NCBI GenBank assembly: GCA_037783545.1
Contig: JBBELK010001574.1
Coordinates: 1 to 64,000 of the forward strand
From: Henricia sp. BOLD:AAB3569
Lineage: Eukaryota > Echinodermata > Asteroidea > Spinulosida > Echinasteridae
Length of the DNA: 64,000 bases
Direction: 5' to 3'
The position numbers and the translations under genes are program-made. This document shows positions 9,363 through 38,836 of the stretch, piece after piece. The first letter of the stretch is position 1, and every line of letters starts with the position of its first letter. The notes below the pieces were generated by a model, which did not search any database, was not told the DNA's origin, and worked only from the letters and a program-made list of their open reading frames with translations.

Positions 9363-11987
9363 AGTCAAAGTGTGGTCCAAACGTCGGCAAATTTGGAGGT
9401 CGAAAAATGTTCCGACGAACTTCAAATTTTGCATGCCCTAAACTCTCTATATTGCGCACATGTCATAAAAAATTGACAGACTTTCGCCGGGAAATGGCAG
9501 AGAAATTTCAAAGTTTAGAAAAAACTGGGTTGAGGCTTCCTGACTGCTCTCACGCAAACCGTGGCTGTCTGTACACACCTCTTTGGGGTACTCCTGAGTT
9601 GTGCGCATGCTCAGTCTTTCGGACTGTCGTTAACGCACCGCAGTTTGGCTCGGCAATTTGGTCAAAGTGTGGTCCAAACGTCGGCAAATTTGGAGGTCGA
9701 AAAATGTTCCGACGAACTTTAAATTTTGCATGCCCTAAACTCTCTATATTGCGCACTTGTCATAACAAATTGACAGACTTTCGCCGGGAAATGGCAGAGA
9801 AATTTCAAAGTTTAGAAAAAAACTGGGTTGAGGCTTCCTGACTGCTCTCACGCAAACCGTGGCTGTCTGTACACACCTCTTTGGGGTACTCCTGAGTTGT
9901 GCGCATGCTCAGTCATTCGGACTGTCGTTAACGCACCGCAGTTTGGCTCGGCAATTTGGTCAAAGTGTGGTCCAAACTTCGGCAAATTTGGAGGTCGAAA
10001 AATGTTCCGACGAACTTCAAATTTTGCATGCCCTAAACTCTCTATATTGCGCACTTGTCATAAAAAATTGACAGACTTTCGCCGGGAAATGGCAGAGAAA
10101 ATTCAAAGTTTAGAAAAAACTGGGTTGAGGCTTCCTGACTGCTCTCACGCAAACCGTGGCTGTCTGTACACACCTCTTTGGGGTACTCCTGAGTTGTGCG
10201 CATGCTCAGTCATTCGGACTGTCGTTAACGCACCGCAGTTTGGCTCGGCAATTTGGTCAAAGTGTGGTCCAAACGTCGGCAAATTTGGAGGTCGAAAAAT
10301 GTTCCGACGAACTTCAAATTTTGCATGCCCTAAACTCTCTATATTGCGCACTTGTCATAAAAAATTGACAGACTTTCGCCGGGAAATGGCAGAGAAATTT
10401 CAAAGTTTAGAAAAAACTGGGTTGAGGCTTCCTGACTGCTCTCACGCAAACCGTGGCTGTCTGTACACACCTCTTTGGGGTACTCCTGAGTTGTGCGCAT
10501 GCTCAGTCATTCGGACTGTCGTTAACGCACCGCAGTTTGGCTCGGCAATTTGGTCAAAGTGTGGTCCAAACGTCGGCAAATTTGGAGGTCGAAAAATGTT
10601 CCGACGAACTTCAAATTTTGCATGCCCTAAACTCTCTATATTGCGCACTTGTCATACAAAATTGACAGACTTTCGCCGGGAAATGGCAGAGAAATTTCAA
10701 AGTTTAGAAAAATCTGGGTTGAGGCTTCCTGACTGCTCTCACGCAAACCGTGGCTGTCTGTACACACCTCTTTGGGGTACTCCTGAGTTGTGCGCATGCT
10801 CAGTCATTCGGACTGTCGTTAACGCACCGCAGTTTGGCTCGGCAATTTGGTCAAAGTGTGGTCCAAACGTCGGCAAATTTGGAGGTCGAAAAATGTTCCG
10901 ACGAACTTCAAATTTTGCATGCCCTAAACTCTCTATATTGCGCACTTGTCATAAAAAATTGACAGACTTTCGCCGGGAAATGGCAGAGAAATTTCAAAGT
11001 TTAGAAAAAACTGGGTTGAGGCTTCCTGACTGCTCTCACGCAAACCGTGGCTGTCTGTACACACCTCTTTAGGGTACTCCTGAGTTGTGCGCATGCTCAG
11101 TCATTCGGACTGTCGTTAACGCACCGCAGTTTGGCTCGGCAATTTGGTCAAAGTGTGGTCCAAACGTCGGCAAATTTGGAGGTCGAAAAATGTTCCGACG
11201 AACTTCAAATTTTGCATGCCCTAAACTCTCTATATTGCGCACTTGTCATAAAAAATTTAAAGACTTTCGCCGGGAAATGGCAGAGAAATTTCAAAGTTTA
11301 GAAAAAAACTGGGTTGAGGCTTCCTGACTGCTCTCACGCAAACCGTGGCTGTCTGTACACACCTCTTTGGGGTACTCCTGAGTTGTGCGCATGCTCAGTC
11401 ATTCGGACTGTCGTTAACGCACCGCAGTTTGGCTCGGCAATTTGGTCAAAGTGTGGTCCAAACGTCGGCAAATTTGGAGGTCGAAAAATGTTCCGACGAA
11501 CTTCAAATTTTGCATGCCCTAAACTCTCTATATTGCGCACTTGTCATAAAAAATTGACAGACTTTCGCCGGGAAATGGCAGAGAAATTTCAAAGTTTGGA
11601 AAAAACTGGGTTGAGGCTTCCTGACTGCTCTCACGCAAACCGTGGCTGTCTGTACACACCTCTTTGGGGTACTCCTGAGTTGTGCGCATGCTCAGTCATT
11701 CGGACTGTCGTTAACGCACCGCAGTTTGGCTCGGCAATTTGGTCAAAGTGTGGTCCAAACGTCGGCAAATTTGGAGGTCGAAAAATGTTCCGACGAACTT
11801 CAAATTTTGCATGCCCTAAACTCTCTATATTGCGCACTTGTCATAAAAAAATGACAGACTTTCGCCGGGAAATGGCAGAGAAATTTCAAAGTTTAGAAAA
11901 AACTGGGTTGAGGCTTCCTGACTGGCTCTCACGCAAACCGTGGCTGTCTGTACACACCTCTTTGGGGTACTCCTGAGTTGTGCGCAA
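9363..11987 (+). repeat. Long intra-array duplication, copy 1
   Basis: At least 2.6 kb of satellite shares a series of private variants with 15910-18534 at a constant offset of 6,547-6,548 bp. Matched pairs are A at 9363/15910, A at 9460/16007, T at 9617/16165, T at 9720/16268, T at 9978/16526, A at 10101/16649, A at 11071/17619, G at 11598/18146 and A at 11987/18534. The two copies also have private differences, such as CTTTATAAAG-like changes near 11258 and an inserted G near 11925, so they have started to diverge. The offset equals 22 monomers plus small length changes. Confidence 0.9.
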
Positions 11988-14900
11988 GCTCAGTCATTCG
12001 GACTGTCGTTAACGCACCGCAGTTTGGCTCGGCAATTTGGTCAAAGTGTGGTCCAAACGTCGGCAAATTTGGAGGTCGAAAAATGTTCCGACGAACTTCA
12101 AATTTTGCATGCCCTAAACTCTCTATATTGCGCACTTGTCATAACAAATTGACAGACTTTCGCCGGGAAATGGCAGAGAAATTTCAAAGTTTAGAAAAAA
12201 ACTGGGTTGAGGCTTCCTGACTGCTCTCACGCAAACCGTGGCTGTCTGTATATACACCTCTTTGGGGTACTCCTGAGTTGTGCGCATGCTCAGTCATTCG
12301 GACTGTCGTTAACGCACCGCAGTTTGGCTCGGCAATTTGGTCAAAGTGTGGTCCAAACGTCGGCAAATTTGGAGGTCGAAAAATGTTCCGACGAACTTCA
12401 AATTTTGCATGCCCTAAACTCTCTATATTGCGCACTTGTCATAAAAAATTGACAGACTTTCGCCGGGAAATGGCAGAGAAATTTCAAAATTTAGAAAAAA
12501 CTGGGTTGAGGCTTCCTGACTGCTCTCACGCAAACCGTGGCTGTCTGTACACACCTCTTTGGGGTACTCCTGAGTTGTGCGCATGCTCAGTCATTCGGAC
12601 TGTCGTTAACGCACCGCAGTTTGGCTCGGCAATTTAGTCAAAGTGTGGTCCAAACGTCGGCAAAATTGGAGGTCGAAAAATGTTCCGACGAACTTCAAAT
12701 TTTGCATGCCCTAAACTCTCTATATTGCGCACATGTCATAAAAAATTGACAGACTTTCGCCGGGAAATGGCAGAGAAATTTCAAAGTTTAGAAAAAACTG
12801 GGTTGAGGCTTCCTGACTGCTCTCACGCAAACCGTGGCTGTCTGTACACACCTCTTTGGGGTACTCCTGAGTTGTGCGCATGCTCAGTCATTCGGACTGT
12901 CGTTAACGCACCGCAGTTTGGCCCGGCAATTTGGTCAAAGTGTGGTCCAAACGTCGGCAAATTTGGAGGTCGAAAAATGTTCCGACGAACTTCAAATTTT
13001 GCATGCCCTAAACTCTCTATATTGCGCACTTGTCATAACAAATTGACAGACTTTCGCCGGGAAATGGCAGATAAATTTCAAAGTTTAGAAAAAACTGGGT
13101 TGAGGCTTCCTGACTGCTCTCACGCAAACCGTGGCTGTCTGTACACACCTCTTTGGGGTACTCCTGAGTTGTGCGCATGCTCAGTCATTCGGACTGTCGT
13201 TAACGCACCGCAGTTTGGCTCGGCAATTTGGTCAAAGTGTGGTCCAAACGTCGGCAAATTTGGAGGTCGAAAAATGTTCCGACGAACTTCAAATTTTGCA
13301 TGCCCTAAACTCTCTATATTGCGCACTTGTCATAAAAAATTGACAGACTTTCGCCGGGAAATGGCAGAGAAATTTCAAAGTTTAGAAAAAACTGGGTTGA
13401 GGCTTCCTGACTGCTCTCACGCAAACCGTGGCTGTCTGTACACACCTCTTTGGGGTACTCCTGAGTTGTGCGCAAGCTCAGTCATTCGGACTGTCGTTAA
13501 CGCACCGCAGTTTGGCTCGGCAATTTGGTCAAAGTGTGGTCCAAACGTCGGCAAATTTGGAGGTCGAAAAATGTTCCGACGAACTTCAAATTTTGCATGC
13601 CCTAAACTCTCTATATTGCGCACTTGTCATAACAAATTGACAGACTTTCGCCGGGAAATGGCAGAGAAATTTCAAAGTTTAGAAAAAAACTGGGTTGAGG
13701 CTTCCTGACTGCTCTCACGCAAACCGTGGCTGTCTGTATATACACCTCTTTGGGGTACTCCTGAGTTGTGCGCATGCTCAGTCATTCGGACTGTCGTTAA
13801 CGCACCGCAGTTTGGCTCGGCAATTTGGTCAAAGTGTGGTCCAAACGTCGGCAAAATTGGAGGTCGAAAAATGTTCCGACGAACTTCAAATTTTGCATGC
13901 CCTAAACTCTCTATATTGCGCACATGTCATAAAAAATTGACAGACTTTCGCCGGGAAATGGCAGAGAAATTTCAAAGTTTAGAAAAAACTGGGTTGAGGC
14001 TTCCTGACTGCTCTCACGCAAACCGTGGCTGTCTGTACACACCTCTTTGGGGTACTCCTGAGTTGTGCGCATGCTCAGTCATTCGGACTGTCGTTAACGC
14101 ACCGCAGTTTGGCTCGGCAATTTGGTCAAAGTGTGGTCCAAACGTCGGCAAATTTGGAGGTCGAAAAATGTTCCGACGAACTTCAAATTTTGCATGCCCT
14201 AAACTCTCTATATTGCGCACTTGTCATAAAAAATTGACAGACTTTCGCCGGGAAATGGCAGAGAAATTTCAAAGTTTAGAAAAAACTGGGTTGAGGCTTC
14301 CTGACTGCTCTCACGCAAACCGTGGCTGTCTGTATATACACCTCTTTGGGGTACTCCTGAGTTGTGCGCATGCTCAGTCATTCGGACTGTCGTTAACGCA
14401 CCGCAGTTTGGCTCGGCAATTTGGTCAAAGTGTGGTCCAAACGTCGGCAAATTTGGAGGTCGAAAAATGTTCCGACGAACTTCAAATTTTGCATGCCCTA
14501 AACTCTCTATATTGCGCACTTGTCATAAAAAATTGACAGACTTTCGCCGGGAAATGGCAGAGAAATTTCAAAATTTAGAAAAAACTGGGTTGAGGCTTCC
14601 TGACTGCTCTCACGCAAACCGTGGCTGTCTGTACACACCTCTTTGGGGTACTCCTGAGTTGTGCGCATGCTCAGTCATTCGGACTGTCGTTAACGCACCG
14701 CAGTTTGGCTCGGCAATTTAGTCAAAGTGTGGTCCAAACGTCGGCAAATTTGGAGGTCGAAAAATGTTCCGACGAACTTCAAATTTTGCATGCCCTAAAC
14801 TCTCTATATTGCGCACATGTCATAAAAAATTGACAGACTTTCGCCGGGAAATGGCAGAGAAATTTCAAAGTTTAGAAAAAACTGGGTTGAGGCTTCCTGA

Positions 14901-15909
14901 CTGCTCTCACGCAAACCGTGGCTGTCTGTACACACCTCTTTGGGGTACTCCTGAGTTGTGCGCATGCTCAGTCATTCGGACTGTCGTTAACGCACCGCAG
15001 TTTGGCCCGGCAATTTGGTCAAAGTGTGGTCCAAACGTCGGCAAATTTGGAGGTCGAAAAATGTTCCGACGAACTTCAAATTTTGCATGCCCTAAACTCT
15101 CTATATTGCGCACTTGTCATAACAAATTGACAGACTTTCGCCGGGAAATGGCAGATAAATTTCAAAGTTTAGAAAAAACTGGGTTGAGGCTTCCTGACTG
15201 CTCTCACGCAAACCGTGGCTGTCTGTACACACCTCTTTGGGGTACTCCTGAGTTGTGCGCATGCTCAGTCATTCGGGACTGTCGTTAACGCACCGCAGTT
15301 TGGCTCGGCAATTTGGTCAAAGTGTGGTCCAAACGTCGGCAAATTTGGAGGTCGAAAAATGTTCCGACGAACTTCAAATTGTGCATGCCCTAAACTCTCT
15401 ATATTGCGCACTTGTCATAAAAAAATTGACAGACTTTCGCCGGGAAATGGCAGAGAAATTTCAAAGTTTAGAAAAAAACTGGGTTGAGGCTTCCTGACTG
15501 CTCTCACGCAAACCGTGGCTGTCTGTACACACCTCTTTGGGGTACTCCTGAGTTGTGCGCATGCTCAGTCATTCGGACTGTCGTTAACGCACCGCAGTTT
15601 GGCTCGGCAATTTAGTCAAAGTGTGGTCCAAACGTCGGCAAATTTGGAGGTCGAAAAATGTTCCGACGAACTTCAAATTTTGCATGCCCTAAACTCTCTA
15701 TATTGCGCACTTGTCATAAAAAATTGACAGACTTTCGCCGGGAAATGGCAGAGAAATTTCAAATTTAGAAAAAACTGGGTTGAGGCTTCCTGACTGCTCT
15801 CACGCAAACCGTGGCTGTCTGTACACACCTCTTTGGGGTACTCCTGAGTTGTGCGCATGCTCAGTCATTCGGACTGTCGTTAACGCACCGCAGTTTGGCT
15901 CGGCAATTT
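11988..15909 (+). repeat. Satellite block with TATATA-insertion monomers and a seven-monomer repeat
   Basis: Three monomers here carry GTATATACACC in place of GTACACACC (near 12250, 13738 and 14333). The run of monomers starting at 12239 (TATATA plus AAAATTTAG, then TTTAGTC plus CACATGTC, then TTTGGCCCGG plus GCAGATAAA) recurs in the same order from 14323, an offset of 2,084 bp or seven monomers. Private changes include CGGGACTG near 15277 and a shortened TTTCAAATTTAG near 15763. Confidence 0.85.
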
Positions 15910-18534
15910 AGTCAAAGTGTGGTCCAAACGTCGGCAAATTTGGAGGTCGAAAAATGTTCCGACGAACTTCAAATTTTGCATGCCCTAAACTCTCTATATT
16001 GCGCACATGTCATAAAAAATTGACAGACTTTCGCCGGGAAATGGCAGAGAAATTTCAAAGTTTAGAAAAAAACTGGGTTGAGGCTTCCTGACTGCTCTCA
16101 CGCAAACCGTGGCTGTCTGTACACACCTCTTTGGGGTACTCCTGAGTTGTGCGCATGCTCAGTCTTTCGGACTGTCGTTAACGCACCGCAGTTTGGCTCG
16201 GCAATTTGGTCAAAGTGTGGTCCAAACGTCGGCAAATTTGGAGGTCGAAAAATGTTCCGACGAACTTTAAATTTTGCATGCCCTAAACTCTCTATATTGC
16301 GCACTTGTCATAACAAATTGACAGACTTTCGCCGGGAAATGGCAGAGAAATTTCAAAGTTTAGAAAAAAACTGGGTTGAGGCTTCCTGACTGCTCTCACG
16401 CAAACCGTGGCTGTCTGTACACACCTCTTTGGGGTACTCCTGAGTTGTGCGCATGCTCAGTCATTCGGACTGTCGTTAACGCACCGCAGTTTGGCTCGGC
16501 AATTTGGTCAAAGTGTGGTCCAAACTTCGGCAAATTTGGAGGTCGAAAAATGTTCCGACGAACTTCAAATTTTGCATGCCCTAAACTCTCTATATTGCGC
16601 ACTTGTCATAAAAAATTGACAGACTTTCGCCGGGAAATGGCAGAGAAAATTCAAAGTTTAGAAAAAACTGGGTTGAGGCTTCCTGACTGCTCTCACGCAA
16701 ACCGTGGCTGTCTGTACACACCTCTTTGGGGTACTCCTGAGTTGTGCGCATGCTCAGTCATTCGGACTGTCGTTAACGCACCGCAGTTTGGCTCGGCAAT
16801 TTGGTCAAAGTGTGGTCCAAACGTCGGCAAATTTGGAGGTCGAAAAATGTTCCGACGAACTTCAAATTTTGCATGCCCTAAACTCTCTATATTGCGCACT
16901 TGTCATAAAAAATTGACAGACTTTCGCCGGGAAATGGCAGAGAAATTTCAAAGTTTAGAAAAAACTGGGTTGAGGCTTCCTGACTGCTCTCACGCAAACC
17001 GTGGCTGTCTGTACACACCTCTTTGGGGTACTCCTGAGTTGTGCGCATGCTCAGTCATTCGGACTGTCGTTAACGCACCGCAGTTTGGCTCGGCAATTTG
17101 GTCAAAGTGTGGTCCAAACGTCGGCAAATTTGGAGGTCGAAAAATGTTCCGACGAACTTCAAATTTTGCATGCCCTAAACTCTCTATATTGCGCACTTGT
17201 CATACAAAATTGACAGACTTTCGCCGGGAAATGGCAGAGAAATTTCAAAGTTTAGAAAAAACTGGGTTGAGGCTTCCTGACTGCTCTCACGCAAACCGTG
17301 GCTGTCTGTACACACCTCTTTGGGGTACTCCTGAGTTGTGCGCATGCTCAGTCATTCGGACTGTCGTTAACGCACCGCAGTTTGGCTCGGCAATTTGGTC
17401 AAAGTGTGGTCCAAACGTCGGCAAATTTGGAGGTCGAAAAATGTTCCGACGAACTTCAAATTTTGCATGCCCTAAACTCTCTATATTGCGCACTTGTCAT
17501 AAAAAATTGACAGACTTTCGCCGGGAAATGGCAGAGAAATTTCAAAGTTTAGAAAAAACTGGGTTGAGGCTTCCTGACTGCTCTCACGCAAACCGTGGCT
17601 GTCTGTACACACCTCTTTAGGGTACTCCTGAGTTGTGCGCATGCTCAGTCATTCGGACTGTCGTTAACGCACCGCAGTTTGGCTCGGCAATTTGGTCAAA
17701 GTGTGGTCCAAACGTCGGCAAATTTGGAGGTCGAAAAATGTTCCGACGAACTTCAAATTTTGCATGCCCTAAACTCTCTATATTGCGCACTTGTCATAAA
17801 AAATTGACAGACTTTCGCCGGGAAATGGCAGAGAAATTTCAAAGTTTAGAAAAAAACTGGGTTGAGGCTTCCTGACTGCTCTCACGCAAACCGTGGCTGT
17901 CTGTACACACCTCTTTGGGGTACTCCTGAGTTGTGCGCATGCTCAGTCATTCGGACTGTCGTTAACGCACCGCAGTTTGGCTCGGCAATTTGGTCAAAGT
18001 GTGGTCCAAACGTCGGCAAATTTGGAGGTCGAAAAATGTTCCGACGAACTTCAAATTTTGCATGCCCTAAACTCTCTATATTGCGCACTTGTCATAAAAA
18101 ATTGACAGACTTTCGCCGGGAAATGGCAGAGAAATTTCAAAGTTTGGAAAAAACTGGGTTGAGGCTTCCTGACTGCTCTCACGCAAACCGTGGCTGTCTG
18201 TACACACCTCTTTGGGGTACTCCTGAGTTGTGCGCATGCTCAGTCATTCGGACTGTCGTTAACGCACCGCAGTTTGGCTCGGCAATTTGGTTAAAGTGTG
18301 GTCCAAACGTCGGCAAATTTGGAGGTCGAAAAATGTTCCGACGAACTTCAAATTTTGCATGCCCTAAACTCTCTATATTGCGCACTTGTCATAAAAAATT
18401 GACAGACTTTCGCCGGGAAATGGCAGAGAAATTTCAAAGTTTAGAAAAAACTGGGTTGAGGCTTCCTGACTGCTCTCACGCAAACCGTGGCTGTCTGTAC
18501 ACACCTCTTTGGGGTACTCCTGAGTTGTGCGCAA
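15910..18534 (+). repeat. Long intra-array duplication, copy 2
   Basis: This is the partner of 9363-11987. It carries the same nine diagnostic variants in the same order and spacing. Its own differences include a seven-A run after 16060 and TTAAAGTG near 18292. Shared order over nine or more monomers argues for a single segmental duplication or unequal crossover rather than repeated independent mutation. Confidence 0.9.
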
Positions 18535-20996
18535 GCTCAGTCATTCGGAGTGTCGTTAACGCACCGCAGTTTGGCTCGGCAATTTGGTCAAAGTGTGGTC
18601 CAAACGTCGGCAAATTTGGAGGTCGAAAAATGTTCCGACGAACTTCAAATTTTGCATGCCCTAAACTCTCTATATTGCGCACTTGTCATAAAAAATTGAC
18701 AGACTTTCGCCGGGAAATGGCAGAGAAATTTCAAAGTTTAGAAAAAAACTGGGTTGAGGCTTCCTGACTGCTCTCACGCAAACCGTGGCTGTCTGTACAC
18801 ACCTCTTTGGGGTACTCCTGAGTTGTGCGCATGCTCAGTCATTCGGACTGTCGTTAACGCACCGCAGTTTGGCTCGGCAATTTGGTCAAAGTGTGGTCCA
18901 AACGTCGGCAAATTTGGAGGTCGAAAAATGTTCCGACGAACTTCAAATTTTGCATGCCCTAAACTCTCTATATTGCGCACTTGTCATAAAAAATTGACAG
19001 ACTTTCGCCGGGAAATGGCAGAGAAATTTCAAAGTTTAGAAAAAACTGGGTTGAGGCTTCCTGACTGCTCTCACGCAAACCGTGGCTGTCTGTACACACC
19101 TCTTTGGGGTACTCCTGAGTTGTGCGCAAACTCAGTCATTCGGACTGTCGTTAACGCACCGCAGTTTGGCTCGGCAATTTGGTCAAAGTGTGGTCCAAAC
19201 GTCGGCAAATTTGGAGGTCGAAAAATGTTCCGACGAACTTCAAATTTTGCATGCCCTAAACTCTCTATATTGCGCACTTGTCATAACAAATTGACAGACT
19301 TTCGCCGGGAAATGGCAGAGAAATTTCAAAGTTTAGAAAAAAACTGGGTTGAGGCTTCCTGACTGCTCTCACGCAAACCGTGGCTGTCTGTATATACACC
19401 TCTTTGGGGTACTCCTGAGTTGTGCGCATGCTCAGTCATTCGGACTGTCGTTAACGCACCGCAGTTTGGCTCGGCAATTTGGTCAAAGTGTGGTCCAAAC
19501 GTCGGCAAATTTGGAGGTCGAAAAATGTTCCGACGAACTTCAAATTTTGCATGCCCTAAACTCTCTATATTGCGCACTTGTCATAAAAAATTGACAGACT
19601 TTCGCCGGGAAATGGCAGAGAAATTTTAAAGTTTAGAAAAAAACTGGGTTGAGGCTTCCTGACTGCTCTCACGCAAACCGTGGCTATCTGTACACACCTC
19701 TTTGGGGTACTCCTGAGTTGTGCGCATGCTCAGTCATTCGGACTGTCGTTAACGCACCGCAGTTTGGCTCGGCAATTTGGTCAAAGTGTGGTCCAAACGT
19801 CGGCAAATTTGGAGGTCGAAAAATGTTCCGACGAACTTCAAATTTTGCATGCCCTAAACTCTCTATATTGCGCACTTGTCATAAAAAATTGACAGACTTT
19901 CGCCGGGAAATGGCAGAGAAATTTCAAAGTTTAGAAAAAACTGGGTTGAGGCTTCCTGACTGCTCTCACGCAAACCGTGGCTGTCTGTACACACCTCTTT
20001 GGGGTACTCCTGAGTTGTGCGCAAGCTCAGTCATTCGGACTGTCGTTAACGCACCGCAGTTTGGCTCGGCAATTTGGTCAAAGTGTGGTCCAAACGTCGG
20101 CAAATTTGGAGGTCGAAAAATGTTCCGACGAACTTCAAATTTTGCATGCCCTAAACTCTGTATATTGCGCACTTGTCATAAAAAAATTGACAGACTTTCG
20201 CCGGGAAATGGCAGAGAAATTTCAAAGTTTAGAAAAAACTGGGTTGAGGCTTCCTGACTGCTCTCACGCAAACCGTGGCTGTCTGTACACACCTCTTTGG
20301 GGGTACTCCTGAGTTGTGCGCATGCTCAGTCATTCGGACTGTCGTTAACGCACCGCAGTTTGGCTCGGCAATTTGGTCAAAGTGTGGTCCAAACGTCGGC
20401 AAATTTGGAGGTCGAAAAATGTTCCGACGAACTTCAAATTTTGCATGCCCTAAACTCTCTATATTGCGCACTTGTCATAACAAATTGACAGACTTTCGCC
20501 GGGAAATGGCAGAGAAATTTCAAAGTTTAGAAAAAAACTGGGTTGAGGCTTCCTGACTGCTCTCACGCAAACCGTGGCTGTCTGTATATACACCTCTTTG
20601 GGGTACTCCTGAGTTGTGCGCGTGCTCAGTCATTCGGACTGTCGTTAACGCACCGCAGTTTGGCTCGGCAATTTGGTCAAAGTGTGGTCCAAACGTCGGC
20701 AAATTTGGAGGTCGAAAAATGTTCCGACGAACTTCAAATTTTGCATGCCCTAAACTCTCTATATTGCGCACTTGTCATAAAAAATTGACAGACTTTCGCC
20801 GGGAAATGGCAGAGAAATTTCAAAGTTTGGAAAAAAATGGGTTGAGGCTTCCTGACTGCTCTCACGCAAACCGTGGCTGTCTGTACACACCTCTTTGGGG
20901 TACTCCTGAGTTGTGCGCATGCTCAGTCATTCGGACTGTCGTTAACGCACCGCAGTTTGGCTCGGCAATTTGGTCAAAGTGTGGTCCAAACGTCGG
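18535..20996 (+). repeat. Satellite block left of the first SINE
   Basis: About eight monomers lie here. They include two further TATATA-insertion monomers (19391 and 20584), GCAAACTC (near 19129), GCAAGCTC (near 20024), a seven-A run near 20176, an extra G giving TTTGGGGGT near 20299, and GCGCGTGC near 20620. The block ends at CGTCGG (20991-20996), where the monomer is interrupted by the inserted element. Confidence 0.85.
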
Positions 20997-20998
20997 GT

Positions 20999-21009
20999 TG
21001 GCGTACGGG
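20999..21009 (+). promoter_or_regulatory. Pol III A box of SINE copy 1
   Basis: TGGCGTACGGG fits the A-box consensus at every fixed position and starts two bases into the element, as expected for a tRNA-derived internal promoter. Confidence 0.75.
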
Positions 21010-21041
21010 TTCTTTCCTCGCCTTTCACCTCTGGGGTCCCG

Positions 21042-21052
21042 GGTTCGAATCC
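21042..21052 (+). promoter_or_regulatory. Pol III B box of SINE copy 1
   Basis: GGTTCGAATCC is the canonical B box / T-loop sequence. The flanking CCGGG and CCGGG can pair at four of five positions, as a decayed tRNA T stem. Confidence 0.85.
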
Positions 21053-21212
21053 GGGGCGTGTATGTGGATTGGGTTTGCAGTCCCTACTTGACCGCGTGGG
21101 TTTTCCCCTGGGGCATTTCTCTGGGGGTTTTCCTCCCACTTCTAAAACTGTAACTCCTTCTTCGACATCTCAAGTTGATAATATAGTATAGTTAGCTAAA
21201 ACCGTATAGTTG

Positions 21213-21247
21213 ATGGCATAAAGGGCTTTAGTTGCCGAAGATGCCAT
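21213..21247 (+). repeat. 3' hairpin of SINE copy 1
   Basis: The inverted repeat ATGGCAT (21213-21219) and ATGCCAT (21241-21247) encloses a 21-nt loop just upstream of the CAA tail. Such 3' stem-loops are where the reverse transcriptase of a partner LINE can recognise SINE RNA; that role here is inference. Confidence 0.6.
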
Positions 21248-21270
21248 AAAATATACAACAACAACAACAA

Positions 21271-22107
21271 CTCTCTATATTGCGCACTTGACATAAAAAA
21301 TTGACAGACTTTCGCCGGGAAATGGCAGAGAAATTTCAAAGTTTAGAAAAAACTGGGTTGAGGCTTCCTGACTGCTCTCACGCAAACCGTGGCTGTCTGT
21401 ACACACCTCTTTGGGGTACTCCTGAGTTGTGCGCATGCTCAGTCATTCGGACTGTCGTTAACGCACCGCAGTTTGGCTCGGCAATTTGGTCAAAGTGTGG
21501 TCCAAACGTCGGCAAATTTGGAGGTCGAAAAATGTTCCGACGAACTTCAAATTTTGCATGCCCTAAACTCTCTATATTGCGCACTTGTCATAAAAAAATT
21601 GACAGACTTTCGCCGGGAAATGGCAGAGAAATTTCAAAGTTTAGAAAAAACTGGGTTGAGGCTTCCTGACTGCTCTCACGCAAACCGTGGCTGTTTGTAC
21701 ACACCTCTTTGGGGTACTCCTGAGTTGTGCGCATGCTCAGTCATTCGGACTGTTGTTAACGCACCGCAGTTTGGCTCGGCAATTTGGTCAAAGTGTGGTC
21801 CAAACGTCGGCAAATTTGGAGGTCGAAAAATGTTCCGACGAACTTCAAATTTTGCATGCCCTAAACTCTCTATATTGCGCACTTGTCATAAAAAATTGAC
21901 AGACTTTCGCCGGGAAATGGCAGAGAAATTTCAAAGTTTAGAAAAAACTGGGTTGAGGCTTCCTGACTGCTCTCACGCAAACCGTGGCTGTCTGTACACA
22001 CCTCTTTGGGGTACTCCTGAGTTGTGCGCATGCTCAGTCATTCGGACTGTCGATAACGCACCGCAGTTTGGCTCGGCAATTTGGTCAAAGTGTGGTCCAA
22101 ACGTCGG
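21271..22107 (+). repeat. Satellite segment between the two SINE copies
   Basis: It is 837 bp long, corresponding to three monomers minus the 55 bp replaced by the element, plus one extra A near 21590. It starts at CTCTCTATATTG and ends at CGTCGG. The variant CACTTGACAT (A near 21291) immediately right of the SINE replaces CACTTGTCAT and is found elsewhere only right of the second SINE. The monomer before the second SINE carries TCGATAACG (near 22052). Confidence 0.92.
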
Positions 22108-22109
22108 GT

Positions 22110-22120
22110 TGGCGTACGGG
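22110..22120 (+). promoter_or_regulatory. Pol III A box of SINE copy 2
   Basis: TGGCGTACGGG is identical to the A box of copy 1. Confidence 0.75.
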
Positions 22121-22152
22121 TTCTTTCCTCGCCTTTCACCTCTGGGGTCCCG

Positions 22153-22163
22153 GGTTCGAATCC
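22153..22163 (+). promoter_or_regulatory. Pol III B box of SINE copy 2
   Basis: GGTTCGAATCC is identical to the B box of copy 1. Confidence 0.85.
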
Positions 22164-22322
22164 GGGGCGTGTATGTGGATTGGGTTTGCAGTCCCTACTT
22201 GACCGCGTGGGTTTTCCCCTGGGGCATTTCTCTGGGGTTTTCCTCCCACTTCTAAAACTGTAACTCCTTCTTCGTCATCTCAAGTTGATAATATAGTATA
22301 GTTAGCTAAAACCGTATAGTTG

Positions 22323-22357
22323 ATGGCATAAAGGGCTTTAGTTGCCGAAGATGCCAT
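22323..22357 (+). repeat. 3' hairpin of SINE copy 2
   Basis: ATGGCAT (22323-22329) and ATGCCAT (22351-22357) are conserved exactly from copy 1. Confidence 0.6.
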
Positions 22358-22380
22358 AAAATATACAACAACACCAACAA

Positions 22381-25300
22381 CTCTCTATATTGCGCACTTG
22401 ACATAAAAAATTGACAGACTTTCGCCGGGAAATGGCAGAGAAATTTCAAAGTTTAGAAAAAACTGGGTTGAGGCTTCCTGACTGCTCTCACGCAAACCGT
22501 GGCTGTCTGTACACACCTCTTTGGTGTACTCCTGAGTCGTGCGCATGCTCAGTCCTTCGGACTGTCGTTGACGCACCACAGTTTGGCTCGGCAATTTGGT
22601 CAAAGTGTGGTCCAAACGTCGGCAAATTTGGAGGTCGAAAAATGTTCCGAAGAACTTCAAATTTTGCATGCCCTAAACTCTCTATATTGCGCACTTGTCA
22701 TAAAAATTTGACAGACTTTCGCCGGGAAATGGCAGAGAAATTTCAAAGTTTAGAAAAAACTGGGTTGAGGCTTCCTGACTGCTCTCACGCAAACCGTGGC
22801 TGTCTGTACACACCTCTTTGGGGTACTCCTGAGTTGTGCGCATGCTCAGTCATTCGGACTGTCGTTAACGCACCGCAGTTTGGCTCGGCAATTTGGTCAA
22901 AGTGTGGTCCAAACGTCGGCAAATTTGGAGGTCGAAAAATGTTCCGACGAACTTCAAATTTTGCATGCCCTAAACTCTCTATATTGCGCACTTGTCATAA
23001 AAAATTGACAGACTTTCGCCGGGAAATGGCAGAGAAATTTCAAAGTTTAGAAAAAACTGGGTTGAGGCTTCCTGACTGCTCTCACGCAAACCGTGGCTGT
23101 CTGTACACACCTCTTTGGGGTACTCCTGAGTTGTGCGCATGCTCAGTCATTCGGACTGTCGTTAACGCACCGCAGTTTGGCTCGGCAATTTGGTCAAAGT
23201 GTGGTCCAAACGTCGGCAAATTTGGAGGTCGAAAAATGTTCCGACGAACTTCAAATTTTGCATGCCCTAAACTCTCTATATTGCGCACTTGTCATAACAA
23301 ATTGACAGACTTTCGCCGGGAAATGGCAGATAAATTTCAAAGTTTAGAAAAAACTGGGTTGAGGCTTCCTGAATGCTCTCACGCAAACCGTGGCTGTCTG
23401 TACACACCTCTTTGGGGTACTCCTGAGTTGTGCGCATGCTCAGTCATTCGGACTGTCGATAACGCACCGCAGTTTGGCTCGGCAATTTGGTCAAAGTGTG
23501 GTCCAAACGTCGGCAAATTTGGAGGTCGAAAAATGTTCCGACGAACTTCAAATTTTGCATGCCCTAAACTCTCTATATTGCGCACTTGTCATAAACAATT
23601 GACAGACTTTCGCCGGGAAATGGCAGAGAAATTTCAAAGTTTAGAAAAAACTGGGTTGAGGCTTCCTGACTGCTCTCACGCAAACCGTGGCTGTCTGTAC
23701 ACACCTCTTTGGGGTACTCCTGAGTTGTGCGCATGTTCAGTCATTCGGACTGTCGTTAACGCACCGCAGTTTGGCTCGGCAATTTGGTCAAAGTGTGGTC
23801 CAAACGTCGGCAAATTTGGAGGTCGAAAAATGTTCCGACGAACTTCAAATTTTGCATGCCCTAAACTCTCTATATTGCGCACTTGTCATAAAAAAATGAC
23901 AGACTTTCGCCGGGAAATGGCAGAGAAATTTCAAAGTTTAGAAAAAACTGGGTTGAGGCTTCCTGACTGCTCTCACGCAAACCGTGGCTGTCTGTACACA
24001 CCTCTTTGGGGTACTCCTGAGTTGTGCGCATGCTCAGTCATTCGGACTGTCGTTAACGCACCGCAGTTTGGCTGGGCAATTTGGTCAAAGTGTGGTCCAA
24101 ACGTCGGCAAATTTGGAGGTCGAAAAATGTTCAGACGAACTTCAAATTTTGCATGCCCTAAACTCTCTATATTGCGCACTTGTCATAAAAAATTGACAGA
24201 CTTTCGCCGGGAAATGGCAGAGAAATTTCAAAGTTTAGAAAAAACTGGGTTGAGGTTTCCTGACTGCTCTCACGCAAACCGTGGCTGTCTGTACACACCT
24301 CTTTGGGGTACTCCTGAGTTGTGCGCATGCTCAGTCATTCGGACTGTCGTTAACGCACCGCAGTTTGGCTCGGCAATTTGGTCAAAGTGTGGTCCAAACG
24401 TCGGCAAATTTGGAGGTCGAAAAATGTTCCGACGAACTTCAAATTTTGCATGCTCTAAACTCTCTATATTGCGCACTTGTCATAAAAAAATTGACAGACT
24501 TTCGCCGGGAAATGGCAGAGAAATTTCAAAGTTTGGAAAAAACTGGGTTGAGGCTTCCTGACTGCTCTCACGCAAACCGTGGCTGTCTGTACACACCTCT
24601 TTGGGGTACTCCTGAGTTGTGCGCATGCTCAGTCATTCGGACTGTCGTTAACGCACCGCAGTTTGGCTCGGCAATTTGGTCAAAGTGTGGTCCAAACGTC
24701 GGCAAATTTGGAGGTCGAAAAATGTTCCGACGAACTTCAAATTTTGCATGCCCTAAACTCTCTATATTGCGCACTTGTCATAAAAAATTGACAGACTTTC
24801 GCCGGGAAATGGCAGAGAAATTTCAAAGTTTAGAAAAAACTGGGTTGAGGCTTCCTGACTGCTCTCACGCAAACCGTGGCTGTCTGTACACACCTCTTTG
24901 GGGTACTCCTGAGTTGTGCGCATGCTCAGTCATTCGGACTGTCGTTAACGCACCGCAGTTTGGCTCGGCAATTTGGTCAAAGTGTGGTCCAAACGTCGGC
25001 AAATTTGGAGGTCGAAAAATGTTCCGACGAACTTCAAATTTTGCATGCCCTAAACTCTCTATATTGCGCACTTGTCATAAAAAATTGACAGACTTTCGCC
25101 GGGAAATGGCAGAGAAATCTCAAAGTTTAGAAAAAACTGGGTTGAGGCTTCCTGACTGCTCTCACGCAAACCGTGGCTGTCTGTACACACCTCTTTGGGG
25201 TACTCCTGAGTTGTGCGCATGCTCAGTCATTCGGTCTGTCGTTAACGCACCGCAGTTTGGCTCGGCAATTTGGTCAAAGTGTGGTCCAAACGTCGGCAAA

Positions 25301-26657
25301 TTTGGAGGTCGAAAAATGTTCCGACGAACTTCAAATTTTGCATGCCCTAAACTCTCTATATTGCGCACTTGTCATAAAAAATTGACAGACTTTCGCCGGG
25401 AAATGGCAGAGAAATTTCAAAGTTTAGAAAAAACTGGGTTGAGGCTTCCTGACTGCTCTCACGCAAACCGTGGCTGTCTGTACACACCTCTTTGGGGTAC
25501 TCCTGAGTTGTGCGCATGCTCAGTCATTCGGACTGTCGTTAACGCACCGCAGTTTGGCTCGGCAATTTGGTCAAAGTGTGGTCCAAACGTCGGCAAATTT
25601 GGAGGTCGAAAAATGTTCCGACGAACTTCAAATTTTGCATGCCCTAAACTCTCTATATTGCGCACTTGTCATAAAAAATTGACAGACTTTCGCCGGGAAA
25701 TGGCAGAGAAAGTTCAAAGTTTAGAAAAAACTGGGTTGAGGCTTCCTGACTGCTCTCACGCAAACCGTGGCTGTCTGTACACACCTCTTTGGGGTACTCC
25801 TGAGTTGTGCGCATGCTCAGTCATTCGGACTGTCGTTAACGCACCGCAGTTTGGCTCGGCAATTTGGTCAAAGTGTGGTCCAAACGTCGGCAAATTTGGA
25901 GGTCGAAAAATGTTCCGAAGAACTTCAAATTTTGCATGCCCTAAACTCTCTATATTGCGCACTTGTCATAAAAAATTGACAGACTTTCGCCGGGAAATGG
26001 CAGAGAAATTTCAAAGTTTAGAAAAAACTGGGTTGAGGCTTCCTGACTGCTCTCACGCAAACCGTGGCTGTCTGTACACACCTCTTTGGGGTACTCCTGA
26101 GTTGTGCGCATGCTCAGTCATTCGGACTGTCGATAACGCACCGCAGTTTGGCTCGGCAATTTGGTCAAAGTGTGGTCCAAACGTCGGCAAATTTGGAGGT
26201 CGAAAAATGTTCCGACGAACTTCAAATTTTGCATGCCCTAAACTCTCTATATTGCGCACTTGTCATAAAAAATTGACAGACTTTCGCCGGGAAATGGCAG
26301 AGAAATTTCAAAGTTTAGAAAAAACTGGGTTGAGGCTTCCTGACTGCTCTCACGCAAACCGTGGCTGTCTGTACACACCTCTTTGGGGTACTCCTGAGTT
26401 GTGCGCATGCTCAGTCATTCGGACTGTCGTTAACGCACCGCAGTTTGGCTCGGCAATTTGGTCAAAGTGTGGTCCAAACGTCGGCAAATTTGGAGGTCGA
26501 AAAATGTTCCGACGAACTTCAAATTTTGCATGCCCTAAACTCTCTATATTGCGCACTTGTCATAAAAAATTGACAGACTTTCGCCGGGAAATGGCAGAGA
26601 AATTTCAAAGTTTAGAAAAAACTGGGTTGAGGCTTCCTGACTGCTCTCACGCAAACC
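22381..26657 (+). repeat. Satellite block right of the second SINE
   Basis: About 14 monomers lie here. The first full one (22499-22795) is among the most divergent in the window, with seven substitutions (22525, 22538, 22555, 22570, 22578, 22651 and 22707). Other marks are GCAGATAAA (near 23331), TCGATAACG (near 23459 and 26132), GCATGCTCT (near 24452), TCGGTCTG (near 25234) and CCGAAGAAC (near 25919). Only satellite sequence is present. Confidence 0.88.
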
Positions 26658-29034
26658 GTGGCTGTCTGTACACACCTCTTTGGGGGTACTCCTGAGTTGT
26701 GCGCATGCTCAGTCATTCGGACTGTCGTTAACGCACCGCAGTTTGGCTCGGCAATTTGGTCAAAGTGTGGTCCAAACGTCGGCAAATTTGGAGGTCGAAA
26801 AATGTTCCGAAGAACTTCAAATTTTGCATGCCCTAAACTCTCTATATTGCGCACTTGTCATAAAAATTTGACAGACTTTCGCCGGGAAATGGCAGAGAAA
26901 TTTCAAAGTTTAGAAAAAACTGGGTTGAGGCTTCCTGACTGCTCTCACGCAAACCGTGGCTGTCTGTACACACCTCTTTGGGGTACTCCTGAGTTGTGCG
27001 CATGCTCAGTCATTCGGACTGTCGTTAACGCACCGCAGTTTGGCTCGGCAATTTGGTCAAAGTGTGGTACAAACGTCGGCAAATTTGGAGGTCGAAAAAT
27101 GTTCCGACGAACTTCAAATTTTGCATGCCCTAAACTCTCTATATTGCGCACTTGTCATAAAAAATTGACAGACTTTCGCCGGGAAATGGCAGAGAAATTT
27201 CAAAGTTTAGAAAAAACTGGGTTGAGGCTTCCTGACTGCTCTCACGCAAACCGTGGCTGTCTGTACACACCTCTTTGGGGTACTCCTGAGTTGTGCGCAT
27301 GCTCAGTCATTCGGACTGTCGTTAACGCACCGCAGTTTGGCTCGGCAATTTGGTCAAAGTGTGGTCCAAACGTCGGCAAATTTGGAGGTCGAAAAATGTT
27401 CCGAAGAACTTCAAATTGTGCATGCCCTAAACTCTCTATATTGCGCACTTGTCATAAAAAATTGACAGACTTTCGTCGGGAAATGGCAGAGAAATTTCAA
27501 AGTTTAGAAAAAACTTGGTTGAGGCTTCCTGACTGCTCTCACGCAAACCGTGGCTGTCTGTACACACCTTTTTGGGGTACTCCTGAGTTGTGCGCATGCT
27601 CAGTCATTCGGACTGTCGATAACGCACCGCAGTTTGGCTCGGCAATTTGGTCAAAGTGTGGTCCAAACGTCGGCAAATTTGGAGGTCGAAAAATGTTCCG
27701 ACGAACTTCAAATTTTGCATGCCCTAAACTCTCTATATTGCGCACTTGTCATAAAAAATTGACAGACTTTCGCCGGGAAATGGCAGAGAAATTTCAAAGT
27801 TTAGAAAAAACTGGGTTGAGGCTTCCTGACTGCTCTCACGCAAACCGTGGCTGTCTGTACACACCTCTTTGGGGTACTCCTGAGTTGTGCGCATGCTCAG
27901 TCATTCGGACTGTCGTTAACGCACCGCAGTTTGGCTCGGCAATTTGGTCAAAGTGTGGTCCAAACGTCGGCAAATTTGGAGGTCGAAAAATGTTCCGAAG
28001 AACTTCAAATTTTGCATGCCCTAAACTCTCTATATTGCGCACTTGTCATAAAAATTTGACAGACTTTCGCCGGGAAATGGCAGAGAAATTTCAAAGTTTA
28101 GAAAAAACTGGGTTGAGGCTTCCTGACTGCTCTCACGCAAACCGTGGCTGTCTGTACACACCTCTTTGGGGTACTCCTGAGTTGTGCGCATGCTCAGTCA
28201 TTCGGACTGTCGTTAACGCACCGCAGTTTGGCTCGGCAATTTGGTCAAAGTGTGGTCCAAACGTCGGCAAATTTGGAGGTCGAAAAATGTTCCGACGAAC
28301 TTCAAATTTTGCATGCCCTAAACTCTCTATATTGCGCACTTGTCATAAAAAATTGACAGACTTTCGCCGGGAAATGGCAGAGAAATTTCAAAGTTTAGAA
28401 AAAACTGGGTTGAGGCTTCCTGACTGCTCTCACGCAAACCGTGGCTGTCTGTACACACCTCTTTGGGGTACTCCTGAGTTGTGCGCATGCTCAGTCATTC
28501 GGACTGTCGTTAACGCACCGCAGTTTGGCTCGGCAATTTGGTCAAAGTGTGGTCCAAACGTCGGCAAATTTGGAGGTCGAAAAATGTTCCGAAGAACTTC
28601 AAATTGTGCATGCCCTAAACTCTCTATATTGCGCACTTGTCATAAAAAATTGACAGACTTTCGCCGGGAAATGGCAGAGAAATTTCAAAGTTTAGAAAAA
28701 ACTTGGTTGAGGCTTCCTGACTGCTCTCACGCAAACCGTGGCTGTCTGTACACACCTCTTTGGGGTACTCCTGAGTTGTGCGCATGCTCAGTCATTCGGA
28801 CTGTCGATAACGCACCGCAGTTTGGCTCGGCAATTTGGTCAAAGTGTGGTCCAAACGTCGGCAAATTTGGAGGTCGAAAAATGTTCCGACGAACTTCAAA
28901 TTTTGCATGCCCTAAACTCTCTATATTGCGCACTTGTCATAAAAAATTGACAGACTTTCGCCGGGAAATGGCAGAGAAATTTCAAAGTTTAGAAAAAACT
29001 GGGTTGAGGCTTCCTGACTGCTCTCACGCAAACC
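26658..29034 (+). repeat. Four-monomer higher-order unit, two copies
   Basis: Two consecutive tetramers (26658-27846 and 27847-29034) match at an offset of 1,188 bp. Shared marks are CCGAAGAAC (A at 26811 and 27999), AAAAATTTGAC at the end of the first monomer, CCGAAGAAC plus AATTGTGC (G at 27418 and 28606), AACTTGG (T at 27516 and 28704) and TCGATAAC (A at 27619 and 28807). Copy 1 has private changes: an extra G near 26683, GTACAAAC near 27069, CGTCGG near 27475 and CTTTTTGG near 27570. This is the clearest higher-order repeat in the window. Confidence 0.9.
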
Positions 29035-32000
29035 GTGGCTGTCTGTACACACCTCTTTGGGGTACTCCTGAGTTGTGCTCATGCTCAGTCATTCGGACTG
29101 TCGTTAACGCACTGCAGTTTGGCTCGGCAATTTGGTCAAAGTGTGATCCAAACGTCGGCAAATTTGGAGGTCGAAAAATGTTCCGACGAACTTCAAATTT
29201 TGCATGCCCTAAACTCTCTATATTGCGCACTTGTCATAAAAAATTGACAGACTTTCGCCGGGAAATGGCAGAGAAATTTCAAAGTTTAGAAAAAACTGGG
29301 TTGAGGCTTCCTGACTGCTCTCACGCAAACCGTGGCTGTCTGTACACACCTCTTTGGGGTACTCCTGAGTTGTGCGCATGCTCAGTCATTCGGACTGTCG
29401 TTAACGCACCGCAGTTTGGCTCGGCAATTTGGTCAAAGTGTGGTCCAAACGTCGACAAATTTGGAGGTCGAAAAATGTTCCGACGAACTTCAAATTTTGC
29501 ATGTCCTAAACTCTCTATATTGCGCACTTGTCATAAAAATTGACAGACTTTCGCCGGGAAATGGCAGAGAAATTTCAAAGTTTAGAAAAAACTGGGTTGA
29601 GGCTTCCTGACTGCTCTCACGCAAACCGTGGCTGTCTGTACACACCTCTTTGGGGTACTCCTGAGTTGTGCGCATGCTCAGTCATTCGGACTGTCGTTAA
29701 CGCACCGCAGTTTGGCTCGGCAATTTGGTCAAAGTGTGGTCCAAACGTCGGCAAATTTGGAGGTCGAAAAATGTTCCGACGAACTTCAAATTTTGCATGC
29801 CCTAAACTCTCTATATTGCGCACTTGTCATACAAAATTGACAGACTTTCGCCGGGAAATGGCAGAGAAATTTCAAAGTTTAGAAAAAACTGGGTTGAGGC
29901 TTCCTGACTGCTCTCACGCAAACCGTGGCTGTCTGTACACACCTCTTTGGTGTACTCCTGAGTTGTGCGCATGCTCAGTCATTCGGACTGTCGTTAACGC
30001 ACCGCAGTTTGGCTCGGCAATTTGGTCAAAGTGTGGTCCAAACGTCGGCAAATTTGGAGGTCGAAAAATGTTCCGACGAACTTCAAATTTTGCATGCCCT
30101 AAACTCTCTATATTGCGCACTTGTCATAAAAAATTGACAGACTTTCGCCGGGAAATGGCAGAGAAATTTCAAAGTTTAGAAAAAACTGGGTTGAGGCTTC
30201 CTGACTGCTCTCACGCAAACCGTGGCTGTCTGTACACACCTCTTTGGGGTACTCCTGAGTTGTGCGCATGCTCAGTCATTCGGACTGTCGTTAACGCACC
30301 GCAGTTTGGCTCGGCAATTTGGTCATAGTGTGGTCCAAACGTCGGCAAATTTGGAGGTCGAAAAATATTCCGACGAACTTCAAATTTTGCATGCCCTAAA
30401 CTCTCTATATTGCGCACTTGTCATAAAAAATTGACAGACTTTCGCCGGGAAATGGCAGAGAAATTTCAAAGTTTGGAAAAAACTGGGTTGAGGCTTCCTG
30501 ACTGCTCTCACGCAAACCGTGGCTGTCTGTACACACCTCTTTGGGGTACTCCTGAGTTGTGCGCATGCTCAGTCATTCGGACTGTCGTTAACGCACCGCA
30601 GTTTGGCTCGGCAATTTGGTCAAAGTGTGGTCCAAACGTCGGCAAATTTGGAGGTCGAGAAATGTTCCGACGAACTTCAAATTTTGCATGCCCTAAACTC
30701 TCTATATTGCGCACTTGTCATAAAAAATTGACAGACTTTCGCCGGGAAATGGCAGAGAAATTTCAAAGTTTAGAAAAAACTGGGTTGAGGCTTCCTGACT
30801 GCTCTCACGCAAACTGTGGCTGTCTGTACACACCTCTTTGGGGTACTCCTGAGTTGTGCGCATGCTCAGTCTTTCGGACTGTCGTTAACGCACCGCAGTT
30901 TGGCTCGGCAATTTGGTCAAAGTGTGGTCCAAACGTCGGCAAATTTGGAGGTCGAAAAATGTTCCGACGAACTTCAAATTTTGCATGCCCTAAACTCTCT
31001 ATATTGCGCACTTGTCATAAAAAATTGACAGACTTTCGCCGGGAAATGGCAGAGAAATTTCAAAGTTTAGAAAAAAACTGGGTTGAGGCTTCCTGACTGC
31101 TCTCACGCAAACCGTGGCTGTCTGTACACATCTCTTTGGGGTACTCCTGAGTTGTGCGCATGCTCAGTCATTCGGACTGTCGTTAACGCACCGCAGTTTG
31201 GCTCGGCAATTTGGTCAAAGTGTGGTCCAAACGTCGGCAAATTTGGAGGTCGAAAAATGTTCCGACGAACTTCAAATTTTGCATGCCCTAAACTCTCTAT
31301 ATTGCGCACTTGTCATGAAAAAATGACAGACTTTCGCCGGGAAATGGCAGAGAAATTTCAAAGTTTAGAAAAAAACTGGGTTGAGGCTTCCTGACTGCTC
31401 TCACGCAAACCGTGGCTGTCTTTACACACCTCTTTGGGGTACTCCTGAGTTGTGCGCATGCTCAGTCATTCGGACTGTCGTTAACGCACCGCAGTTTGGC
31501 TCGGCAATTTGGTCAAAGTGTGGTCCAAACGTCGGCAAATTTGGAGGCGAAAAATGTTCCGACGAACTTCAAATTTTGCATGCCCTAAACTCTCTATATT
31601 GCGCACTTGTCATAAAAAATTGACAGACTTTCGCCGGGAAATGGCAGAGAAATTTCAAAGTTTAGAAAAAACTGGGTTGAGGCTTCCTGACTGCTCTCAC
31701 GCAAACCGTGGCTGTCTGTACACACCTCTTTGGGGTACTCCTGAGTTGTGCGCATGCTCAGTCATTCGGACTGTCGTTAACGCACCGCAGTTTGGCTCGG
31801 CAATTTGGTCAAAGTGTGGTCCAAACGTCGGCAAATTTGGAGGTCGAAAAATGTTCCGACGAACTTCAAATTTTGCATGCCCTAAACTCTCTATATTGCG
31901 CACTTGTCATAAAAAATTGACAGACTTTCGCCGGGAAATGGCAGAGAAATTTCAAAGTTTGGAAAAAACTGGGTTGAGGCTTCCTGACTGCTCTCACGCA

Positions 32001-37944: not shown

Positions 37945-38836
37945 GTGGCTGTCTGTACACACCTCTTTGGGGTACTCCTGAGTTGTGCGCATGCTCAGTC
38001 ATTCGGACTGTCGTTAACGCACCGCAGTTTGGCTCGGCAATTTGGTCAAAGTGTGGTCCAAACGTCGGCAAATTTGGAGGTCGAAAAATGTTCCGACGAA
38101 CTTCAAATTTTGCATGCCCTAAACTCTCTATATTGCGCACTTGTCATAACAAATTGACAGACTTTCGCCGGGAAATGGCAGAGAAATTTCAAAGTTTAGA
38201 AAAAACTGGGTTGAGGCTTCCTGACTGCTCTCACGCAAACCGTGGCTGTCTGTACACACCTCTTTGGGGTACTCCTGAGTTGTGCGCATGCTCAGTCATT
38301 CGGACTGTCGTTAACGCACCGCAGTTTGGCTCGGCAATTTGGTCAAAGTGTGGTCCAAACGTCGGCAAATTTGGAGGTCGAAAAATGTTCCGACGAACTT
38401 CAAATTTTGCATGCCCTAAACTCTCTATATTGCGCACTTGTCATAAAAAATTGACAGACTTTCGCCGGGAAATGGCAGAGAAATTTCAAAGTTTAGAAAA
38501 AAACTGGGTTGAGGCTTCCTGACTGCTCTCACGCAAACCGTGGCTGTCTGTACACACCTCTTTGGGGTACTCCTGAGTTGAGCGCATGCTCAGTCATTCG
38601 GACTGTCGTTAACGCACCGCAGTTTGGCTCGGCAATTTGGTCAAAGTGTGGTCCAAACGTCGGCAAATTTGGAGGTCGAAAAATGTTCCGACGAACTTCA
38701 AATTTTGCATGCCCTAAACTCTCTATATTGCGCACTTGTCATAAAAAATTGACAGACTTTCGCCGGGAAATGGCAGAGAAATTTCATAGTTTAGAAAAAA
38801 CTGGGTTGAGGCTTCCTGACTGCTCTCACGCAAACC
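37945..38836 (+). repeat. Satellite trimer with a rare variant monomer
   Basis: Three monomers lie here. The last carries GTTGAGCGC (A at 38581) and TTTCATAG (T at 38787), the same pair of changes 206 bp apart as at 2900/3106 and 5441/5647. The first carries CATAACAAATTG. Confidence 0.85.

Follow-up and report, generated by a model that had tools for sequence, protein, structure and literature searches.

Transposable elements (TEs) are known to insert into satellite arrays (PMC12628747), and a mariner-like element has been described within the satellite DNA of Messor ants (PMC9659126). Furthermore, some satellites are themselves derived from short interspersed elements (SINEs), as in the case of Hy/Pol III in salamanders and Satellite 1 in Xenopus (PMC9659126). 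In the subtelomeres of rye, tandem repeats and adjacent TEs co-amplify, and illegitimate recombination is involved (PMC4857426). This report deals with a SINE inside a 297-bp satellite of Henricia sp. BOLD:AAB3569 (Asteroidea), found in a window of 64,000 bp (positions 1-64000 of contig JBBELK010001574.1, here C1574, of assembly GCA_037783545.1). Very probably, this SINE was captured by a satellite monomer with duplication of its target (form A), the resulting unit suffered a 79-bp deletion, and the 516-bp product spread through the satellite.

As in Messor, a mobile element is found inside a satellite unit, but here it is a SINE, and empty, full and deleted states as well as several insertion positions exist in one genome (PMC9659126). 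Hy/Pol III and Xenopus Satellite 1 likewise are tRNA-type SINE sequence made tandem; they derive, however, from the tRNA-related region of the SINE, whereas in Henricia the SINE was inserted into a pre-existing satellite and the sampled arrays are mostly SINE-free (PMC9659126). Joint expansion of tandem repeats and TEs is common to rye and Henricia, but the rye TEs flank the arrays and the SINE lies within the unit (PMC4857426). The capture of TEs by satellites is already known; what is new, and notable, is the unusually complete series of steps. Retroelement-bearing units are reportedly amplified in satellites or at centromeres also in the case of the bovine 1.711 satellite inserts and the gibbon LAVA element, where the elements differ from this one. 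We know of no comparable step series, and among the open-access papers listed in our searches there was no case of a SINE in a satellite with full, deleted and recombinant states.

Two composite units and the SINE they carry

The assembly comprises 740.7 Mb in 2,104 contigs, which possibly include both haplotypes, so alleles may be counted twice in the copy numbers given here. According to Tandem Repeats Finder (TRF) and segmentation the window consists of the satellite from end to end. The mean pairwise divergence of the monomers is 0.74% (3,000 random pairs from the 141 window monomers of exactly 297 bp). When the window was searched with the SINE by BLAST (E 1e-5), two copies were found. 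An earlier note on this DNA had described two SINE-bearing units with identical junctions and a longer repeat made of a 516-bp composite and two normal monomers. The units, their junctions and the two plain monomers between them are borne out (Table 1); the longer repeat is a candidate higher-order unit. Each SINE starts at the same monomer base and gives way to the monomer again at the same base. The three differences that the note had counted all lie in the SINE (copy 1 versus copy 2: 21123 G/-, 21165 A/T and 21264 A/C); one further site, the single one in the monomer part, has to be added (20942 T/A). In the surrounding plain monomers the 3' flank reads TTGTCAT, in both composites TTGACAT. 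This variant had been taken as private to the two copies, but it is present in all 29 copies of this short form that were read and in a further copy on C530 (copy X). Two independent insertions as the source of the window pair were considered and rejected: junction, deletion and private states are the same in both.

Table 1 Features of the satellite array and its two composite units in the window (all on the forward strand)
Position	Feature	Strand	Remark
1..64000	297-bp satellite, head-to-tail array	+	TRF; segmentation, no gaps >20 bp
20891..21406	Composite unit 1, SINE-bearing monomer, short (deleted) form, 516 bp	+	
20992..21270	SINE copy 1	+	Five bases (GGGCG) missing at the start of the head, by alignment with form A
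20992..20996	GTCGG, 5-bp microhomology at the deletion junction of monomer and SINE head	+	
20999..21009	Putative A-box-like sequence TGGCGTACGGG	+	Retained despite the deletion
21042..21052	Putative B-box sequence GGTTCGAATCC	+	
21271..21284	CTCTCTATATTGCG, surviving 3' copy of the target-site duplication	+	Full forms have both copies
21291..21291	T>A substitution marking the short form (TTGTCAT to TTGACAT)	+	
21407..22001	Two plain monomers of 298 and 297 bp between the composites (21407-21704, 21705-22001)	+	
22002..22516	Composite unit 2, short form, 515 bp	+	
22103..22380	SINE copy 2, tail CAACACCAACAA	+	
22401..22401	T>A marker in the flank of SINE copy 2	+	

The inserted element has the properties of a SINE family. 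Its unit of about 284 bp ends in an (AAC)n tail, and an internal 39-mer has 4,688 matches in the genome (2,339 forward, 2,349 reverse; up to 3 mismatches; satellite copies included), as is characteristic of a dispersed multicopy family below 600 bp. Target-site duplications of variable sequence accompany dispersed loci as well as the satellite forms A, B, C and D. Among 13 loci outside the main arrays, five have clear duplications of 12-13 bp (C23, C326, C375, C481, C132), two have doubtful ones (C130, C206), and none was found at six (C3, C37, C43, C226, C298, C328); C3 and C43 have identical flanks, and at C37 the SINE is truncated and lies within a relict monomer. Furthermore, the element has a putative internal RNA polymerase III (Pol III) promoter comprising TGGCGTACGGG, which we take to be A-box-like, and GGTTCGAATCC, presumably the B box. 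No tRNA gene was detected in the SINE by ARAGORN, and no Rfam family reached the gathering score; a sub-threshold anti-hemB hit (E 0.078, loose threshold, 20890-21400 only) was taken as chance. A head variant that seemed limited to the satellite SINEs was discarded, with 2,377 exact matches in the genome and a dispersed sample biased by the pattern that had found it.

V-domain SINEs possess a conserved V domain of about 120 bp. The centre of the Henricia SINE, of the type GTGGGTTTTCC...TTTTCCTCCCAC, may be V-domain-like. A tRNA-like head is common to the V-domain SINEs (PMC6887750) and the SINE described here; the latter differs in its (AAC)n tail and bears no family name.

Outside the 297-bp satellite, several SINE heads 3,296-3,297 bp apart were seen among the matches listed for C62 (about 849344-940242, minus strand), and these probably mark one more tandem array that carries the SINE, built of a longer unit unlike the one described here.

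The full-length form, its deletion and its spread

Elsewhere in the assembly the same insertion exists in a complete state, form A, with 19 junction matches on 13 contigs. In the 13 copies read, the monomer is whole up to CTCTCTATATTGCG and is followed by the full SINE and by CTCTCTATATTGCG again, giving a unit of 595 bp and a target-site duplication of 14-16 bp (the AA of the tail is ambiguous). By this layout form A is a standard insertion with target-site duplication. If the A unit is aligned with the 516-bp unit of the window, the two are related by one 79-bp deletion, the breakpoints of which are joined at the 5-bp microhomology GTCGG. By origin, the lost 79 bp are made up of 55 unique monomer bases, the 14 bp of the duplication on the 5' side, five bases of the SINE head and one GTCGG. 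A microhomology of at least 5 bp accompanies just 0.6% of all 81,685 possible deletions of 30-200 bp in the unit. The 55 missing monomer bases of the earlier note are correct as a net count but belong to the larger deletion of an intermediate present on other contigs. Their loss as part of the insertion itself, which the window alone would suggest, is not upheld, since a full form with its duplication exists, of which the window form is a microhomology-mediated deletion.

The same relation is suggested by substitutions within the SINE. Two states, 166T and the absence of AA at 210-211, are common to form A and the short form and are not found in the copies of forms B, C and D compared; the short form adds 245T (C>T) and the T>A in the 3' flank. 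In a tree of 85 rows, all with a SINE of at least 240 aligned bases and none from C1166, form A, the short form and copy X group together with support of 86/84, and the short form and copy X with 87/84, both below the 95/80 at which the tool sets its star. Copy X has a full 5' flank, yet it carries 245T and TTGACAT of the short form.

The earlier note had assumed that the composite was amplified once, and had suggested a search with its 5' junction. This search (whole assembly, up to 2 mismatches) yielded 82 rows, 29 of which are short-form junctions in satellite on 8 contigs (28 exact and one with a single mismatch): ten on C313, six on C530, three on C623 and two each on C331, C661, C897, C969 and C1574. 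In the remaining 53 rows the SINE is preceded by different letters. The sequences retrieved for twelve of these rows represent 11 dispersed SINEs and the truncated SINE of C37; some of the others (C1116, C1166, C1796) lie on contigs bearing other satellite forms. One other satellite form is form B at the same target, in which the monomer stops at ATATTG and G, A or GA precedes GGGCGG (97 junction rows at up to 2 mismatches, including the non-satellite locus C132). Further GA junctions were found through the form A pattern (39 rows, B3). Altogether 184 related junctions were counted on 38 contigs (short 29, A 19, B 97, B3 39; C412 left out, C132 included), so a single amplification does not describe the case. 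All 29 short junctions were read as sequence, as were 13 of 19 for A, 26 of 97 for B (with C132) and 5 of 39 for B3 (all on C1166); the rest are known as pattern matches only. If X, C and D are added, the satellite copies read as sequence number 79, of which 74 are among the 85 rows of the tree and five lie in C1166.

For the short form, the spacing of the copies is mostly 516+k*297 bp. Below 6 kb, the spacings that fit composite+k*297 within 6 bp number 16 of 21 for the short form (0.9 expected), 3 of 3 for A (0.1), 37 of 65 for B (2.8) and 16 of 36 for B3 (1.6). Units that are more alike than neighbouring monomers, the mark of a higher-order repeat, were clearly found in C1226 only. This contig has five units of 1,188 bp which are 98.99-99.92% identical, and its monomers agree by 99.46% in the same phase (20 pairs) against 98.66% in different phases (25 pairs). 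In addition, a pair of spacings of 813 and 1407 bp is repeated in C313 (2,220 bp), with 99.46% identity between the two complete units.

The origin of the window pair itself can be narrowed down by comparison with C313. A block of 1,628 bp on this contig is near-identical to the pair (2,893 bits, against 2,933 for the window to itself), so the pair need not have originated in the window. Among 56 satellite copies compared, the tail CAACACCAACAA of copy 2 occurs elsewhere in one C313 copy only, the last in a run of ten short copies. Between the last two copies of this run C313 has the monomer variant GACTGTTGTTAACG; its penultimate SINE is not the same as copy 1 of the window, and the monomer that directly follows the last copy on the downstream side departs from its window counterpart in 9 alignment columns. 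Since the private variant of copy 2 ends the run of ten, the window pair would be a piece of an older, larger expansion, and is best read as a shuffled fragment of it.

Other deletions have occurred in the same satellite. Within the window, two truncated monomers without SINE (4070-4296 and 4595-4821) lack positions 1-70 and start at monomer position 71; their spacing is 525 bp and includes a single plain monomer, and they are a second deletion derivative, present twice. Further derivatives were seen in C1166:39600-40400 (L058) and in L057. Among them, SINE bases 1-82 are joined to about monomer position 209, and composites follow each other in direct tandem at 574-575 bp without a plain monomer in between.

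Further insertions and a possible target preference

Two other positions of the satellite carry a SINE as well. Form C is found in C661 in two copies 2,969 bp apart with the duplication CAAACGTCGGCA, form D in C1855 with the duplication CATGCTCAGTCATTC. Judged by these duplications of their own, both are separate insertions. Different breakpoints at other loci had been named in the earlier note as a finding that would speak against the capture. They do exist in forms A, B, C and D. However, C and D are insertions in their own right and the window form probably descends from A, so capture followed by co-amplification remains supported and its history has become richer. Furthermore, two copies have the left flank of D and the right flank of B (C1855 at 4216; C1506), and one copy has the left flank of B and the right flank of D (C715). 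These fit the opposite products expected when units in different phases exchange sequence within the SINE.

The same satellite harbours an element E of 668 bp, with two copies in C313 and two in those stretches of C1303 that were read. The first 31 bases are those of the SINE and are followed by unrelated sequence with internal repeats, and about 3-5 monomer bases are missing at the insertion site. Element E is possibly a template-switch chimera.

The forms at the shared target may go back to more than one insertion. A target-site preference may have led the SINE into the satellite repeatedly at one and the same nucleotide, so that A, B1, B2, B3 and the C1116 form would be partly separate insertions; we regard this as a serious alternative and lean only slightly against it. 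One such case may be C1116, where a satellite subfamily about 87% identical to the main one has the SINE at the same target. In all three composites read there, the 31 diagnostic columns of the flanks are of subfamily type throughout and none is of main type, and both copies of the duplication have the subfamily base. All three SINEs also have the allele CTGGCGTCCC (1,034 exact matches genome-wide), in place of which CTGGGGTCCC occurs in the compared copies of A, B1, B2, D and the short form. In C1166 a different variant of the duplication stands on both sides, and the letters at the 5' junction vary (CG, G, A, GA). Moreover, a SINE outside the satellite, at C132, occupies the same target and is flanked by a perfect duplication of 12 bp, TTCTCTATATTG; C132 and the satellite have 15 bp of target in common, TCTCTATATTGCGCA.

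However, one insertion followed by gene conversion with plain monomers could mimic the flank pattern. The full-length SINE among the C1166 composites read has the common CTGGGGTCCC, but this allele has no bearing on the C1116 case and leaves our judgement as it was. The four other dispersed copies whose duplications are clear do not share a target, and the target in C132 lies within a repeat family of 81 matches.

This interspersed family, TTCTCTATATTGCGCAATGCACCTGCAG, is found at C132:1537574 and 80 other places (up to 3 mismatches) and has 15 bp in common with the satellite where the SINE target lies.

It is conceivable, though doubtful, that the retrotransposition machinery of the SINE prefers CTCTATATTG|CG, in which case the satellite, having such a site in nearly every monomer, would act as a landing pad. 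Repeated entries at the same base would then have occurred in different subfamilies, each founding a composite array of its own, and exchange inside the SINEs would subsequently have linked units of different phase. The SINE would then be one with a sequence preference, and would give rise to new higher-order units of the satellite time and again.

Variants known from the C1116 subfamily are seen in the window too. The monomer directly after copy 2 (22517-22813) has a cluster of variants (GGTGTACTCC, GAGTCGTG, CCTTCGG and GTTGACGCACCACAG), several of which are those of the diverged C1116-type monomers. This match suggests that satellite subfamilies exchanged sequence at the edge of the composite block.

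Probable history of the composite units

We infer the following order of events. A dispersed SINE would have entered one 297-bp monomer by target-primed reverse transcription, duplicating about 14-16 bp (AACTCTCTATATTGCG), and the 595-bp composite, form A, would then have spread. In one copy, 79 bp would have been lost by a deletion across GTCGG, presumably through repair of the end-joining type, and with them 55 bases of the monomer, the duplication on the 5' side and the start of the SINE. The product, a 516-bp unit also marked by the C>T in the SINE and the T>A in the 3' flank, would have spread with neighbouring plain monomers through the exchange that homogenises the satellite; 8 contigs now carry at least 29 copies of it. 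For this amplification we infer unequal exchange rather than rolling-circle amplification or replication slippage.

Several observations weigh against this history. All evidence comes from one assembly, and part of the spacings does not follow the simple rule (5 of 21 for the short form, 28 of 65 for B, 20 of 36 for B3). The excess of identity between monomers of the same phase is absent in C1883 (98.77 vs 98.73), in C1585 and in the unit of SINE plus element E in C313, where the incomplete third unit makes the test weak, and it is slight in C661 (98.7% vs 98.43%). With no clear excess beyond C1226, a strict higher-order structure is established for one array only. In addition, copy X must be the missing intermediate or else a product of recombination; as it shares 107A solely with its two short neighbours, a local exchange is at least as likely.

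Among the competing explanations, a spread by selective or meiotic advantage of the SINE's Pol III promoter or of the new unit, in place of neutral exchange, is improbable. It would be in line with the putative A-box-like and B-box sequences that outlast the deletion and with the expansion of several composite forms. On the other hand, the SINE has no tRNA gene or Rfam match as described above, the monomer lacks a CENP-B core (a CENP-B box was rejected at a best match of 7/9 positions), and the window array is almost entirely plain monomer. Even less probable is an assembly artefact, in which the second copy of the window would be a local mis-duplication. Near-identical arrays are difficult to assemble and a single assembly was used, but the two copies have private differences, the variant of copy 2 is found again in C313, and the short form occurs on 8 contigs with differing spacings. 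Least probable is an insertion with simultaneous loss of 55 bp of target and no duplication, which would suit the deleted form as the sole form within the window, but form A retains the duplication on both sides of a SINE with intact head and identical private states, and the microhomology GTCGG accounts for the short junction.

Capture, deletion and spread thus remain the preferred history. The origin of new higher-order satellite units is usually deduced from their end products. In Henricia, one genome retains the plain monomers, the insertion with its duplication, the microhomology deletion, the spread of the derivative, insertions at other positions and copies with exchanged flanks. The SINE serves as a unique marker in an array that is near-identical apart from it, so that the exchange within the satellite can be traced copy by copy.

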